A DNA stretch of 42,502 nt from an uncultured Selenomonadaceae bacterium (lineage in GTDB: Bacteria; Bacillota; Negativicutes; Selenomonadales; Selenomonadaceae): positions 1 through 42,502 of the forward strand of contig CAJOCT010000004.1 in the NCBI GenBank assembly GCA_905236725.1, written 5' to 3'. Every line of letters starts with the position of its first letter. Positions within the stretch are counted from its first letter, which is position 1. Positions 6,478 through 26,739 of the stretch are shown one piece after another. The notes under the pieces were generated by a model. It was not told where the DNA came from. It made no database searches and saw nothing but the letters and a program-made list of their open reading frames with translations. Both the position numbers and the translations under genes were made by a program.

Positions 6478-7956
6478 TTAGCCGAAAAATTTATTTAAAG
6501 TTTCTTCATCGGATTTTTTCCCGAAATATGAGCCGATTAAAAATAAAATCAGTGAACAGGTTATCCCGATTGTTATTTGATGCAGATTCAAAATTTTAAA
6601 TCCCGCCGCTTGAGTCGCACAATAAATTATCGTTCCGCCGACCATTGAAAGTTGTGCGCCGAATTTATTTGCGCCTTTCCAAAAAAGTCCGAGTAAAAGC
6701 GTCCAGAAAAAAGCCGTCTCCAGCCCGCCGAATGCAAACATATTTATCAGCCAAATTAAACTTGGCGGCGTCAATGCGATTATAAAAACCGTTCCGCCGA
6801 TTACCGCAGTTGTCATCATCGATAAAATTCTTAACTTGGAAGTTTCGACAGGTTGAGAATTTTTTTCTTTGTAATGCAAGTAAACATCTTTGACAATCGC
6901 ACTCGACGCAACAATTAAAAGTCCCGAAATTGTCGAAATTGACGCGGCAAGCGGTCCGATTATCGCAAGTCCGACCAATTCTTTCGGCATAACCGTTACA
7001 ATCGTCGTTGGGATAATGTTATCGACTCCGCCGTAATCCGCAGGACTGCCGGGCAAAACTCCATGCGCCAAAATCCCCGTGAAATTTATTCCGATATTCA
7101 TAAAACCGACGACAACCGTTCCGATTAACATCGCGTCGTGAAGTCCGTGAGTGTCTTTGTAAGAAATTCCGCGAACGACGGATTGAGGCAGGGCGATTGT
7201 GCAAATTCCGACCAAAAGCCATTGCGTGAAATAAATCGTCCACGGCATATTCCCGAAACTGAACGGTTCCAACATTTCGGGATTATTTTTTTCAATCGTC
7301 AGCATAATATTTTCATAACCGCCGCCCGCGTCCAAAACATATTTCAGAAGCAGAACAATTCCCGCCATCATAATCAGCGCACAACAAGTATCCGTCAAAG
7401 CAACCGCGCGAAATCCGCCGATAGAAGTGTAAATTACGACGACAAGCCCGAATAAAATTAAACCGGTCTCGTAACTGTAACCCGTCACCGCAGAAAATAA
7501 TTTTGCGCCGCCGACAAATTGCGCCGTCATCGTCCCGCAAAAAAATAAAACTATCACGAATGCGGAAATTGCCGCGAGAAAATCCGATTTAAATCTTTCT
7601 CGAATTATATCAACAACCGTCACCGCGTTAAATTTTCTTGCCAGGAGTGCAACTCTTTTTCCGAAAATTCCCAGCACCAAAAAAATCGCCGTCACTTGAA
7701 CGACTGCCATATAAATCCAGCCGAAGCCGACTTGATAAGCCATTCCCGGACCGCCGACGAAACTTGAAACAGAGCTGTACGTCGCAACCGTCGTCATCGC
7801 CAAAACAAATCCGCCGAGTTCGCGATTGCCGATAAAATAACTGCCGACAAAATTTTTTCCCGCCTGTTTGTGACGTACAAAAATACTTATTCCGACCATA
7901 ACCGCCATGAAAAAAATCAGCGGCAAAAGTGCGGACAAACTTCCTTGCTCACTCAT
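6478..7956 (-). CDS. panF: Sodium/pantothenate symporter
   Basis: Sodium-driven uptake of pantothenate, the vitamin precursor of coenzyme A, in the cytoplasmic membrane. The 492-residue protein belongs to the sodium:solute symporter family. It shares PanF-like landmarks: ATYSSVSSFVGGPG near the N-terminus, LARKFNAVTVVD, GGFRAVALTD, RGISYKD and LNMFAFGGLE-like IWLINMFAFGGLE near the C-terminus, with about 12-13 hydrophobic helices. ATG 7956 follows GGTGA and overlaps the yhdT stop by 8 bp, so the genes are coupled. The yhdT-panF pair is the same as in enterobacteria, which supports the substrate assignment. Confidence 0.88.
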   Translation of the reverse strand: MSEQGSLSALLPLIFFMAVMVGISIFVRHKQAGKNFVGSYFIGNRELGGFVLAMTTVATYSSVSSFVGGPGMAYQVGFGWIYMAVVQVTAIFLVLGIFGKRVALLARKFNAVTVVDIIRERFKSDFLAAISAFVIVLFFCGTMTAQFVGGAKLFSAVTGYSYETGLILFGLVVVIYTSIGGFRAVALTDTCCALIMMAGIVLLLKYVLDAGGGYENIMLTIEKNNPEMLEPFSFGNMPWTIYFTQWLLVGICTIALPQSVVRGISYKDTHGLHDAMLIGTVVVGFMNIGINFTGILAHGVLPGSPADYGGVDNIIPTTIVTVMPKELVGLAIIGPLAASISTISGLLIVASSAIVKDVYLHYKEKNSQPVETSKLRILSMMTTAVIGGTVFIIALTPPSLIWLINMFAFGGLETAFFWTLLLGLFWKGANKFGAQLSMVGGTIIYCATQAAGFKILNLHQITIGITCSLILFLIGSYFGKKSDEETLNKFFG

Positions 7957-8212
7957 TTTTTTCACCGCCCAGATCAATATTTTTGAAAAGTTTTTTACTC
8001 AAAATAAAACTAATCAGAATCGCGAAAATCCAAACGCCGATTGAGCCGAGAAAAGCCCACAAAGGCAGATGAAAAATTTTCACGTCGAGCGAAGAAGTCC
8101 CGAAACCCGCAATCAGCCAAAAAATAATCAGCCCGACAAGCGCAAGTCCCGTAAAAATTGCCTCACGTCTCACCAGACTGAATTTTTCCGCGTCAGTCAA
8201 AAATTTTTTCAT
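7949..8212 (-). CDS. yhdT: YhdT/DUF997 small membrane protein
   Basis: An 87-residue membrane protein with two hydrophobic helices (about 20-38 and 52-71), characteristic of the DUF997/YhdT family found immediately upstream of panF in many bacteria. Its biochemical role is not known; by position it is a partner or accessory of the pantothenate symporter. It starts at an ATG with a strong AGGAG site and overlaps panF at its 3' end. Confidence 0.85.
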   Translation of the reverse strand: MKKFLTDAEKFSLVRREAIFTGLALVGLIIFWLIAGFGTSSLDVKIFHLPLWAFLGSIGVWIFAILISFILSKKLFKNIDLGGEKNE

Positions 8213-8258
8213 TAAAACTTTCCTCCCGTCTTGTTCGTTAAAGATACAAGCTGTGAAA

Positions 8259-19886: not shown

Positions 19887-21948
19887 GTGGACGCAGACAA
19901 AAAGACTTTCGACGAGTTCATGGACGGCAGCAAATTTTTTACAATACCTGTTTATCAGCGAAAATATGATTGGCATCAAGCGCATTTCCAACAACTTTTT
20001 GACGACATCAAAAAAATTATCGAGAATGATAAACCGCATTTTCTCGGAACTTTTGTTTATCAGCAAAAGAAAAATAATTACGTCATTGTTGACGGTCAAC
20101 AGAGAATTACCAGCCTTGTTTTGCTTGCCAAGTCGCTCTGTGATCTGATTGATGACGAAGAGCTGAAGGAAGAAATTCTGGGAAGATATATCAAACACAG
20201 TATCGGCAAGGGCATGAAAGATAAATGTAAACTCATTCCGACCGAATACGACAGAGATGTTTTTGAAAAAATTATGGCTCACGATGATTTCAATGAAAAC
20301 TTTTTTAGCGATCCTGAAAAATCTTCGGTGATGTACAGAAATTTTATTTTCTTCAGAGAAAAAATTTCCGAGCGTGAATACTCTCCGCAAGAAATTTATG
20401 AGGCGATTCAAAAAATTGATATTGTCCGAATAAATATCGAAACCGGCGAAAATCCGCAAGAAATTTTTGAGTCTTTAAATTCGACCGGCTTATATTCTCA
20501 CTCAATCCGATTTATTCAGAAATTATTTGCTCATGTCGTTGGATTACGAAGATCAGGAAATACTTTACAAAAAATACTGGCTGGAAATTGAAAAATTGCT
20601 CCGCTATTCCGAAGACATCGAAAAATTTATGGTTCAATACTTAATGGTCAGGCGCAAATCCGATTCCGTTACAATGGGAAATAAAAAAATAAAGTTGTCC
20701 GATAAAAATCTTTATGAGGTTTTCAAGCGTTATTTTGTAGAAAATTATACTGATTCCGATAAAAGCAAAAATGTTGAGGCGTGTTTGAAAGATATTTATC
20801 GTTACGCAATATTTTACAAGAAGTTTTCTTTCAATGACGAGAATGTTTTTGATAACTTGTCGGCATTGGAGAAAAAATTTTTTGAACTCACTTATTTAAT
20901 TAAGGCTTCGGGTGCTCCGATTGTTTTGATGTATCTCTATGATAAGTACGAGAAAAAATTTTTTAACGAAGAGACTTTTATAAAATTTGTCGAAATAATG
21001 ATTTCGATGGCGTTTAGAGCGAAAGTTTGCGGCTACAAAGGAATAAATTCGCAATTTGCGTCAAATTTTATTGCGCGTTTGGATAAATCAGATTTCTTCA
21101 ACGAAGACATTTTTTGGCAAATGATCACTGTCGGCAAGAAAAACAATCCTTTCCCCGATGATAACCTTTTCAAAGAAAATTTAATGACGACAGATCTCTA
21201 TTCAAGAATAAATTGCAAATATTTGCTGTATTCTTTAGAAAAAAATTCCGAACACCCGCACGAATTGCCTTCATATTCCGTCGGAACCATCGAACACATT
21301 ATGCCGAAAAGTCTGACACATTGGAAAAAATATTTGGAAGAAAAAAACGACCTTGCCGCTCATGAGATTTTTCTTCACACTTTGGGAAATTTAACTTTAA
21401 CTGCTTATAATTCCTCGTTGAGCAATTCAATTTTTGAAAAGAAAAAAAAGGAATATGCAAAGTCAAATTTTTTCTATACCAGAAGTTTAAAAGATATTAC
21501 CGATTGGACTTCAAAGCAAATTAAAGAACGCGCAGAAAAATTGGCGTGTGAGGCGTTAAAAATTTGGAACTTGCCGGAAAAATACAGTTTTGCCTCCGTC
21601 GATGCGAAAAATATTTTTACGCTTGAAGACGATTTAGAAAATTTCACGGGTAAAAAACCCGCATTGCTTTCAATCTCCGACAAAGAACACGAAATCAAAA
21701 CTTGGCGTGCCCTGTTGGAAGAAGTCATAAAAAATCTTTATTCGCTTGACAAAGAAATTTTTGAGTTGGCGGCGCAGAAAGAAAATATCCCCTCAAAATT
21801 GTTTTCAACCGGTTTTGGCAAAATAGATCCGACTTTTTTCATGAGTACGGAGCGTTGTTTGCGGATAACTAAAATTCTCGTGGAAAATTTTGACTCAATC
21901 TGCGGGACAAATTTTAAAGATGAAATTTGGTTTACGCTGAAAAAATAA
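19887..21948 (+). pseudogene. DUF262-DUF1524 (GmrSD-like) protein gene, frameshifted
   Basis: Looks like a single protein of the DUF262/DUF1524 type, related to GmrSD restriction of modified phage DNA. The first part starts at GTG 19887 after AAGGA and holds IPVYQRKYDW, FLGTFVY and the signature VDGQQRIT (Asp69-Arg73). Near 20490, right after ESLNSTGL, the frame changes by one base: the next frame reads ILTQSDLFRNYLLMSLD, the expected continuation. The second part carries the HNH-like nuclease motif IEHIMPKSL and LGNLTLTAYNSSLSN, then an unassigned C-terminal domain of about 110 residues, ending at 21948. One extra T in CTTATATTC would explain it. No slippery sequence was seen; a sequencing error is possible. 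Confidence 0.75.
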
Positions 21949-25428: not shown

Positions 25429-25459
25429 CTGTCATAAAATTTTTTCTCGTGAATATAAT
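25429..25459 (+). promoter_or_regulatory. Promoter module of leader-peptide gene 1
   Basis: CTGTCA, a 19-bp spacer containing TTCTCGTGAA and TATAAT, then GAAGTGAAAA. The same layout and spacing recur at 25847 and 26350. Confidence 0.7.
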
Positions 25460-25509
25460 GAAGTGAAAACAAAATTTCATAAAAATTTTTTTTTAGGAGG
25501 TCGATTAAA

Positions 25510-25803
25510 ATGAAAGATGAAAAAATTTTGCAGGGAGAAATTTTGAGCGATGAGGAACTTGAAAACATTTTTGGAGGCTCAAAGGGTTACGTTTATTATG
25601 CTCGCGTAGAAAGACCCGGCATTGACGGCTACTATCTTGTATTCAGCGAAAAACCTATGTCGAAGGAAGAAGTAAGATTTTGTGTGTACACTACACCGCA
25701 TATCATTTCCCCATTTATCGACTATAAAGACAAAGCCAAATTTTTAGATATAGCAAAAGCTAAAGGTTATGAAGCTATCGACTGTGACAAGATGAAAAAT
25801 TAA
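25510..25803 (+). CDS. Double-glycine leader peptide 1 (putative exported peptide)
   Basis: A 97-residue protein of unknown function. Its N-terminus (MKDEKILQGEILSDEELENIFGG is the extent, residues 1-23) looks like a double-glycine leader cut by C39-type peptidase transporters: an acidic LSDEELE helix ending in Gly22-Gly23. The remaining 74 residues begin SKGYVYYARVERPG and contain two cysteines but share nothing visible with the following two peptides. A strong AGGAGG site precedes the ATG. It is the first of three cassettes with near-identical promoters between rimO and cinA. Peptide bacteriocin, signal or RiPP precursor are all possible; no transporter or modifying enzyme is in the window. 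Confidence 0.7.
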   Translation: MKDEKILQGEILSDEELENIFGGSKGYVYYARVERPGIDGYYLVFSEKPMSKEEVRFCVYTTPHIISPFIDYKDKAKFLDIAKAKGYEAIDCDKMKN

Positions 25804-25821
25804 AAAATTTTTTGAAAAATA

Positions 25822-25848
25822 ATTCTCGGCGAGCGTCGAGATTTTTTT
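25822..25848 (+). terminator. Terminator of leader-peptide gene 1
   Basis: TCTCGGC and GCGTCGAGA form a short stem followed by seven T, which run into the promoter of the next gene. Confidence 0.65.
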
Positions 25849-25877
25849 GTCATAAAAATAATTTTCGTGCATATAAC
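25847..25877 (+). promoter_or_regulatory. Promoter module of leader-peptide gene 2
   Basis: TTGTCA, a 19-bp spacer containing TTTTCGTGCA, and TATAAC, then TAAGTGAAAA, the same arrangement as the neighbouring cassettes. Confidence 0.7.
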
Positions 25878-25907
25878 TAAGTGAAAAAATTTTAGGAGAT
25901 GATTAAC

Positions 25908-26264
25908 ATGAAAGACGAAAAAATTTTGCAAGAGGAAATTTTGAGCGAAGAAGAACTTGAACAGGTCGCAGGCGGAACTCCCGGTGAAACTGCAGATGAC
26001 AGCAGATTTTTAAATGTTTTGTTGCAAGGAACAAAATATCATCAATGCGATCGCTACGGCTCATTTAGAATTTTCTTCAACCAAAGAGGTGAGATCAATG
26101 ATGTTGCGAAGTCGTGGGAATCTCTCGGCATTAAATTTTTCCATGGTGAAGGACTGTCAAACATATATTCTTTAAACGGCAAAAACCTTTCACGCGATGA
26201 GGCTTGGGAATACGCACAAGACAAAGTCGGAAAACATTTGACTAAAGCGCAGTGGGATTGGTAA
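25908..26264 (+). CDS. Double-glycine leader peptide 2 (putative exported peptide)
   Basis: A 118-residue protein whose first 23 residues nearly copy peptide 1 (shared MKDEKILQ, then EEILSEEELEQVAGG) and end in a double glycine. The following 95 residues (starting TPGETADDSRF, ending WEYAQDKVGKHLTKAQWDW) have one cysteine and a charged, probably folded character. They resemble no family that I recognise. ATG 25908 was chosen over the in-frame ATG at 25899 because the AGGAG site overlaps the latter. Leader conservation with core divergence points to a leader-guided export system rather than to a shared function of the mature parts. Confidence 0.7.
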   Translation: MKDEKILQEEILSEEELEQVAGGTPGETADDSRFLNVLLQGTKYHQCDRYGSFRIFFNQRGEINDVAKSWESLGIKFFHGEGLSNIYSLNGKNLSRDEAWEYAQDKVGKHLTKAQWDW

Positions 26265-26281
26265 AAAAAATTTTGTAAATA

Positions 26282-26326
26282 AATCCTGATGGCAAAAAGT
26301 CGTCGGGATTTTTTTATTTGACGCAG
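26282..26326 (+). terminator. Terminator of leader-peptide gene 2, left copy of a flanking direct repeat
   Basis: AATCCTGATGGC and GTCGTCGGGATT form the stem, followed by seven T and ATTTGACGCAG. A diverged copy lies at 26677-26719, so the third cassette is bracketed by direct repeats. The TTGACG at its end has a TAAAAG 17 bp downstream and could be a weak promoter. Confidence 0.7.
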
Positions 26327-26349
26327 AAAAAAAAATTTTTTAAAAGAGT

Positions 26350-26380
26350 TTGTCATAAAAATATTTTCCGTGCATATAAT
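26350..26380 (+). promoter_or_regulatory. Promoter module of leader-peptide gene 3
   Basis: TTGTCA, a 19-bp spacer containing TTTTCCGTGCA, and TATAAT, then AAAGTGAAAA. The ribosome-binding stretch TTTAGGAGGTCGATTAAA is identical to that of peptide 1. Confidence 0.7.
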
Positions 26381-26427
26381 AAAGTGAAAAGAAAATTTCA
26401 AAAAAAATTTTTAGGAGGTCGATTAAA

Positions 26428-26613
26428 ATGGCAAATCGTGAAGAAAATCTCAAAAAAATCAATGCTGAACTCGAAAAGTTGAGCGATGATGAACTCGAAA
26501 AAATTGCGGGCGGCTTTTATGCTCGTTCTAACGTCGGCGATGTTAAACCGGACGTTAATTCTTCAAATCCTGCGGATCCTAATCAAAGTCGGATAATTCA
26601 TTGGACTGCGTAG
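26428..26613 (+). CDS. Double-glycine leader peptide 3 (short putative exported peptide)
   Basis: A 61-residue peptide. The leader (residues 1-29) has a different start from peptides 1 and 2 but the same end, KLSDDELEKIAGG. The 32-residue mature part, FYARSNVGDVKPDVNSS through IIHWTA, has no cysteine, is rich in Asn, Asp, Ser and Pro, and ends in a hydrophobic tail. It is the most bacteriocin- or pheromone-like of the three in size. Immunity and export genes are not seen nearby. Real expression is supported by a promoter module, AGGAGG site and terminator of its own. Confidence 0.7.
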   Translation: MANREENLKKINAELEKLSDDELEKIAGGFYARSNVGDVKPDVNSSNPADPNQSRIIHWTA

Positions 26614-26676
26614 ACAAAATTAGGTTATTGATTAGTAAACGCGAAAAAAATCTAAAAAATCATCTGACACAAAAAA

Positions 26677-26719
26677 AATCCCTTCGGCAAAAGTCGTTGG
26701 GATTTTTTATTTGACGCTG
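26677..26719 (+). terminator. Terminator of leader-peptide gene 3, right copy of the direct repeat
   Basis: AATCCCTTCGGC and GTCGTTGGGATT form the stem with AAAA loop, then six T and ATTTGACGCTG. Its TTGACG serves as the -35 box of the cinA promoter. Confidence 0.75.
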
Positions 26720-26739
26720 TGAAGAAATTTTTATAAAAT
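26711..26739 (+). promoter_or_regulatory. Promoter of the cinA-like gene
   Basis: TTGACG, a 17-bp spacer and TAAAAT, ending 18 bp before the TTG start. Confidence 0.65.

Follow-up and report, generated by a model that had tools for sequence, protein, structure and literature searches.

The 42,502-nucleotide stretch of DNA analysed here (the window) comes from the draft genome of a Selenomonadaceae bacterium of the rumen (2.65 Mb in 210 contigs, 97% complete), and it carries three consecutive small genes whose products begin with a double-glycine (GG) leader, as do substrates of C39-peptidase ATP-binding cassette (ABC) exporters. The three genes were all found within 25429-26719, where a preliminary description had placed them, with the core lengths of 74, 95 and 32 residues that it had given. 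Each gene has a good ribosome-binding site and is preceded by a promoter element of the extracytoplasmic function (ECF) type. The features of the locus are as follows.

25430..25458, + strand: ECF-type promoter element of gene 1, TGTCATAAAATTTTTTCTCGTGAATATAA, with –35 TGTCAT, –10 AATATAA and a 16-base spacer (0 mismatches)
25510..25803, + strand: gene 1, 97 residues, composed of a 23-residue double-glycine leader and a 74-residue core (25579-25800)
25824..25841, + strand: terminator-like hairpin 3′ of gene 1, followed by TTTTTTT (consensus scan)
25848..25876, + strand: ECF-type promoter element of gene 2, TGTCATAAAAATAATTTTCGTGCATATAA (pattern search, 0 mismatches)
25908..26264, + strand: gene 2, 118 residues, composed of a 23-residue double-glycine leader and a 95-residue core (25977-26261)
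26281..26311, + strand: terminator-like hairpin 3′ of gene 2 (consensus scan)
26351..26379, + strand: ECF-type promoter element of gene 3, TGTCATAAAAATATTTTCCGTGCATATAA (pattern search, 0 mismatches)
26428..26613, + strand: gene 3, 61 residues, composed of a 29-residue double-glycine leader and a 32-residue core, FYARSNVGDVKPDVNSSNPADPNQSRIIHWTA

For gene 2, the ATG at 25908, which yields the usual MKDEKIL leader and 118 residues, was preferred over a start at 25899 (121 residues). The leaders end in LSDEELENIFGG, LSEEELEQVAGG and LSDDELEKIAGG in genes 1, 2 and 3, respectively, and a GG-leader motif present three times in the window did not occur in any of 100 second-order Markov simulations of it. 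The contrast of conserved leaders and dissimilar cores reported earlier was also recovered, with pairwise identities of 52-78% among the leaders and no BLAST match of the cores to each other. L(–12), L(–7) and the terminal GG are present in all three leaders, together with I/V at –4; docking on the C39 peptidase occurs through these positions, as established for L(–12) and L(–7) (PMC6959990).

The pattern extends far beyond the window. A search with one leader revealed leaders on nine contigs of the genome, and the set amounted to 22 GG precursors, including the window genes, plus a separate six-gene set on contig C36. The 22 precursors shared a mean identity of 62% in the leaders versus 26% in the cores, and BLAST grouping of the cores gave ten groups, the largest of which (10 members) contained gene 2. 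The cores had 31-103 residues, were near neutral and contained few cysteines. In every precursor the sequence similarity ended at GG, as expected for a leader that is removed, so that the possibility of a GG lying inside a conserved folded domain, raised in the preliminary description, found no support. Some members of this family had unusual architectures: in one precursor on contig C47 (L027:11209-11562) the core consisted of a unit of about 43 residues duplicated in tandem, and a second GG lay mid-core, and the cores of short precursors (L032:9599-9793 and L037:31-689) started with or ended in TGH (e.g., GTGHNLRENPF...TATGH). Another gene (L036:2287-2571, contig C56) displayed a typical leader start (MKDDKILQEEMLTDDELEKIF) that lacked GG and ran into a cysteine-rich stretch resembling the end of a radical SAM/SPASM protein, and its product had no Pfam match.

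The genome also encodes the machinery for such leaders. Two full NHLM-type C39 transporters were identified, on contigs C47 and C9, both with the catalytic Cys, His and Asp and the Walker A motif intact, so the absence of a C39 transporter, which would have spoken against the proposed export, does not apply. The C47 operon passed the curated cut-offs of all three NHLM exporter families, TIGR03796 (968 bits versus 853), TIGR03797 (718 versus 709) and TIGR03794 (213 versus 156), and it also encodes a resistance-nodulation-division-type (RND-type) adaptor and a TolC-like protein. Four precursor genes adjoin this operon, another NHLM ABC2 gene on contig C46 adjoins three precursors, and an exporter operon adjoins precursor genes in genome G282 also. 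The C39-like proteins encoded on C18 and C37 were set aside, since they were not part of the NHLM operon. With intact C39 exporters in the genome and leaders that fit the C39 docking rule, the earlier claim that these are substrates of such an exporter gains support, and it is very likely, judging from the sequences, that the precursors are exported and cut after GG by a C39 exporter.

Most of the precursors are preceded by a shared promoter, TGTCAT-N16-CATATAA, with the 16-base spacer that is usual for ECF promoters. A genome search with the pattern TGTCATAAAA-N8-CGTG-N-ATATAA, allowing up to 2 mismatches, revealed 19 sites versus 0 in the reversed control, nearly all of them before precursor genes, and one, on contig C21, between an ECF sigma factor gene and the gene of a 77-residue protein. 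Sequence comparison across the precursors showed that both boxes were fixed while the spacer and the 5′ untranslated region varied. The scan of a GTDB-derived collection retrieved 20 stretches, mostly from rumen Selenomonadaceae assemblies, and the matches found in Ochrobactrum and Sphingobium were regarded as fortuitous; a further match carried a Ruminococcus label. The element was also observed before genes of other kinds. On contig C12 (L139, 46000-58237) it preceded, with 1 mismatch, genes for 731-residue and 141-residue proteins without Pfam match, in a cluster that also encodes DnaJ, FHA/YscD-like and PP2C proteins, and in G013 it preceded a relative of the 731-residue protein. Moreover, it was found before genes of small proteins that carry a Sec-type signal sequence in place of a GG leader (L090:4074, L090:4553 and L089:4986), and the regulon may thus include other exported proteins.

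The C21 sigma factor has 183 residues and scored 111 bits against TIGR02937 (cut-off 42.9), with the Sigma70_r2 and Sigma70_r4_2 domains, that is, the sigma2 and sigma4 domains of an ECF sigma factor. Among 36 congeners, the TGTCAT element occurred only in G013 and G034, and close orthologues of the C21 sigma were likewise confined to these two genomes (64% and 71% identity, the next being 51%). The sigmas of the three genomes formed one clade with support 99/94, with the sigma encoded on C36 as its neighbour. Most of the other congeners carried the same precursor family with TGTAAC-N16-CGTATAA, an element with 168 matches versus 7 in the control in the congeners and 1 versus 2 in 23 genomes of other genera, while a third type, TTAAY-N16-CGTATAA, went with a third sigma group. 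At the loci examined, which do not comprise every gene of each genome and come from related, non-independent genomes, sigma clade A was associated with 48 TGTCAT elements and clade B with 23 TGTAAC elements, each with 0 of the other types, and clade C with 21 TTAAY and 6 TGTAAC elements. Three promoter types thus match three sigma clades, with exceptions in clade C, and the spacer stayed at 16 bases across the types. In G028, where no sigma was detected, none of the ECF elements was found upstream, and a TTGACA/TATAAT promoter stood there instead. Across dozens of scattered genes the two boxes change jointly from one sigma clade to another, which points to a trans-acting factor, and the shared promoter and this co-variation indicate that the small exported proteins very probably form a dispersed regulon under the control of a dedicated ECF sigma factor. 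Within it, recognition of the TGTCAT element by the C21 sigma is, from the same comparisons, highly probable.

Additional ECF sigma genes were noted in these genomes. The C36 cluster (L134:7040-10874) combines a second ECF sigma with the six genes of GG-leader precursors and an AAAG small protein of its own, and it has two sites CTACCCAC-N16-ATATAA, the only ones in the genome; being confined to this cluster, they likely represent a separate promoter type. In G034, on its contig C15 (L133:3390-19000), another ECF sigma-like gene adjoins a broken C39-ABC remnant, in a locus that also encodes an RHS protein and a DUF4280/AHH-nuclease protein.

The gene beside the sigma recurs as well. The sigma gene was followed by a gene for a small protein of 63-83 residues in G000, G034, G031, G033, G017 and G036, and an NHLM exporter operon adjoined the pair in all of these except G000. 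The small gene carried the element of its clade in G000, G031, G033 and G036 and a variant, TGTCAT...CGTATAA, in G034. The proteins follow the pattern DFSxFSK...[LM]SxDELDxVAAAGNP (64-87 residues); in an alignment of ten members the positions D, S, L, LD and AAG did not vary, and no significant Pfam or NCBIfam match was obtained. Their end resembles a precursor leader in which AA replaces GG, with hydrophobic residues at the positions equivalent to –12, –7 and –4, so that the small protein could occupy the C39 peptidase. A role as anti-sigma factor or as export sensor would be a guess, and it seems rather doubtful that the protein is a non-cleavable leader mimic which sits in the C39 peptidase or holds the sigma according to exporter load. 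If true, export would be coupled to transcription of the exported substrates.

The cores are not genomic orphans, an idea rejected because relatives were found in other species. For gene 2, the core falls into a large family marked by GI...NxY..G..IS..EA; a profile that included the leader found members in 25 of the 36 congeners, with up to 28 per genome, and in 0 of 23 genomes of other genera. The core-only profile, applied to 300 genomes of the class, detected the family in six genera, all of Selenomonadaceae; in several of those other genera the genes again had GG leaders, and in G237 and G168 they had TGTAAC-N16-CGTATAA promoters. The gene-3 core had relatives in seven other congeners, conserved at the ends and variable in the middle, and for the gene-1 core one relative was clear, in G034, and another, in G013, was weaker. 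The preliminary description had considered two cores large enough to fold, and AlphaFold2 did predict folded structures for core 1 (predicted local distance difference test, pLDDT, 86.9; predicted template modelling score, pTM, 0.74, on the basis of two sequences only) and core 2 (pLDDT 81, pTM 0.74). The fold search of both against the PDB gave nothing below E 0.2, the gene-2 family had no significant match to PDB sequences, and a DsbA-like core, to which a weak profile match in the PDB pointed (E 0.046), was discarded because the fold search gave no support. The profile search suggested at the outset returned nothing above cut-off for the cores in Pfam, NCBIfam or PADLOC, and an anti-phage defence role was dismissed for want of a PADLOC match. 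The proposal of an undescribed exported-peptide family consequently holds for the cores and not for the leader and the exporter, which are of known kinds.

Several observations weigh against the interpretation as a regulon of exported proteins. The bases next to the –10 and –35 boxes vary at two of the window elements (e.g., AATATAA in gene 1), a small number of precursors lack an individual element, and at about half of the precursor genes a sigma-70-like TTGACG-N17-TAAAAT lies just upstream of the ECF element. No element was seen upstream of the exporter genes, and the exporter may therefore lie outside the regulon. The mixture of types in clade C, the TGTAAC elements in G005, G014, G016 and G021 (60-86% complete), where no sigma was found, and the sigma-like genes of three congeners that have no precursors also depart from a strict pairing of sigma and promoter. 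As to modification, the genome-wide search covered YcaO and LanM, and LanM was not found in a search whose control gave no match either.

The alternatives have to be judged against these observations. If the GG were never cut, the products would be cytoplasmic proteins with a common N-terminal domain, an explanation that is highly improbable, given that conservation ends at GG in every member, that the leader fits the C39 docking rule and that exporter operons adjoin precursor genes on C47 and in G282. Similarly, the element could be an ordinary sigma-70 promoter copied along with the duplicated genes, the ECF sigma being unrelated, since TGTCAT-N17-ATATAA with the preceding TG would also pass for a weak promoter of the extended –10 type and several genes also have the upstream TTGACG-N17-TAAAAT. 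This is very unlikely, because the boxes stay fixed where the spacer and the 5′ untranslated region vary, change jointly with the sigma clade at dozens of dispersed genes, and in G013 also precede other kinds of genes.

As to function, the products might be unmodified antimicrobials, class II bacteriocins or microcins released by the C39 exporter to kill competitors, in keeping with a leader and an exporter of that kind, with many diverse precursors per genome and with weak matches of bacteriocin models to the leader. However, no bacteriocin model reached its cut-off, in agreement with the first impression that the cores match no recognised class: TIGR01847 gave 13.2 and 14.9 bits (cut-off 15.7), and the others stayed further below. 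The model of Nif11-derived precursors, TIGR03798 (cut-off 32.3 bits), gave 11.9 for gene 1 and 16.1 for gene 3 and did not list gene 2. Assignment by model match to a bacteriocin class or to a class of the ribosomally synthesized and post-translationally modified peptides (RiPPs) was rejected, the matches being confined to the leader and below cut-off. Moreover, the window genes are solitary, each behind a promoter of its own and, as judged by gene arrangement, none beside an immunity gene, the two near-neutral cores that were tested are predicted soluble domains from a set of 31-103 residues, and core families are kept across species, all of which makes antimicrobials an unlikely explanation. 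Less likely still are RiPP precursors whose cores are modified before export, like Nif11-derived lanthipeptides and azole peptides. Modifying enzymes are usual with NHLM exporters and Nif11 leaders (PMC2887384), one C36 precursor has a full Nif11 domain, and cores of 31-39 residues such as that of gene 3 are RiPP-like in size; against this, YcaO was not found in the genome in a search with a working control, nor was LanM in the uncontrolled one, no modifying enzyme adjoins the window genes, and many cores are too long and poor in cysteine. As no YcaO was found in the genome and no immunity gene accompanies the window precursors, secreted proteins without modification agree better with the data than do bacteriocins or RiPPs; of the functions initially proposed for these C39 substrates (bacteriocins, signals and RiPP precursors), bacteriocin and RiPP are not favoured. 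The mature products are probably free of modification, and the balance tips slightly towards extracellular proteins for dealing with other microbes or the host instead of pore-forming bacteriocins.

Known systems share parts of this arrangement. Class II microcins of Enterobacterales are antibacterial peptides with a double-glycine leader, exported from a two-membrane cell by a C39-ABC, adaptor and TolC route and accompanied by immunity genes. The leader type and the route are as found here, where, in contrast, no immunity gene occurs in the window, the cores are near neutral with predicted folds, and copies are many. Another likeness is to Nif11/NHLP precursors, whose leader-end motif ELSDEELEAVAGG (Haft et al. 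2010, PMC2887384) is matched by the last 13 residues of the window leaders, so that both leader and exporter are of known kinds. The Nif11-derived precursors (N11P, TIGR03798) share with the present set the exporter families TIGR03794, TIGR03796 and TIGR03797 and the large, scattered paralogous sets (PMC2887384), but their leader has about 69 residues versus 23-30 here, where the cores do not exceed 103 residues, contain few cysteines and have predicted folds, YcaO was not found and an ECF sigma regulon is proposed. Two adjoining C36 genes (L134:7339-7830 and 7921-8256) have nearly identical C-terminal halves and different leaders, one with the full Nif11 domain and the other short. This pair is likely a case of leader exchange or shortening, and the short leader was probably derived from, or exchanged with, the Nif11 type. 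CtA of Clostridium thermocellum, exported by PCAT1, consists of a protein-sized cargo behind a short GG leader (24 + 66 residues) in which L(–12) and L(–7) are present (PMC6959990), as here; this likeness is drawn from the leader and not from the cargo sequence, and PCAT1 has one substrate versus more than twenty here, where the route would cross two membranes. Finally, the ECF sigma MibX and the anti-sigma MibW regulate the microbisporicin cluster (PMC4973701), an example of pathway-specific ECF control of exported-peptide genes as proposed here, although in a single actinobacterial lantibiotic cluster with modification genes instead of dispersed single-gene units; no membrane anti-sigma was recognisable in the present case. 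No paper joining these features was found in the open-licence literature, and the whole looks like an undescribed secretion programme in Selenomonadaceae.

The surroundings of the three genes are ordinary: upstream lies the gene of a radical SAM/TRAM protein and downstream that of CinA, the latter with a sigma-70-like promoter (TTGACG-N17-TAAAAT) at 26711-26739. Elsewhere in the window (19887-21948), what is presumably a DUF262-type protein is split into two overlapping reading frames by a frameshift, either in the gene or in the assembly.

The gene set, the contrast between leaders and cores, a common promoter that varies together with the sigma clades, and the intact exporter are observed directly in the sequences of draft genomes, and from them it appears likely that the window genes belong to a scattered regulon through which this rumen Selenomonadaceae bacterium expresses small exported proteins. 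In the proposed mechanism, the C21 ECF sigma would direct RNA polymerase to TGTCAT-N16-CATATAA before the precursor genes and the small gene adjoining the sigma. The short leader, similar to the end of a Nif11 leader, would use L(–12) and L(–7) to dock on the C39 peptidase domain of the NHLM exporter, which would cut after GG while the core leaves through the HlyD-type adaptor and the TolC-like channel, and the mature product would act outside the cell as an unmodified protein or peptide. This would amount to a large and so far unrecognised group of small proteins exported by rumen bacteria, a group that has a regulator and an exporter to itself and whose promoter would be a handle for finding further members. 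Promoter boxes that change with sigma clades at dozens of sites would offer a test case for the evolution of ECF sigma specificity, and cargo with predicted folds behind a Nif11-like leader would widen the presumed range of cargo of NHLM exporters.
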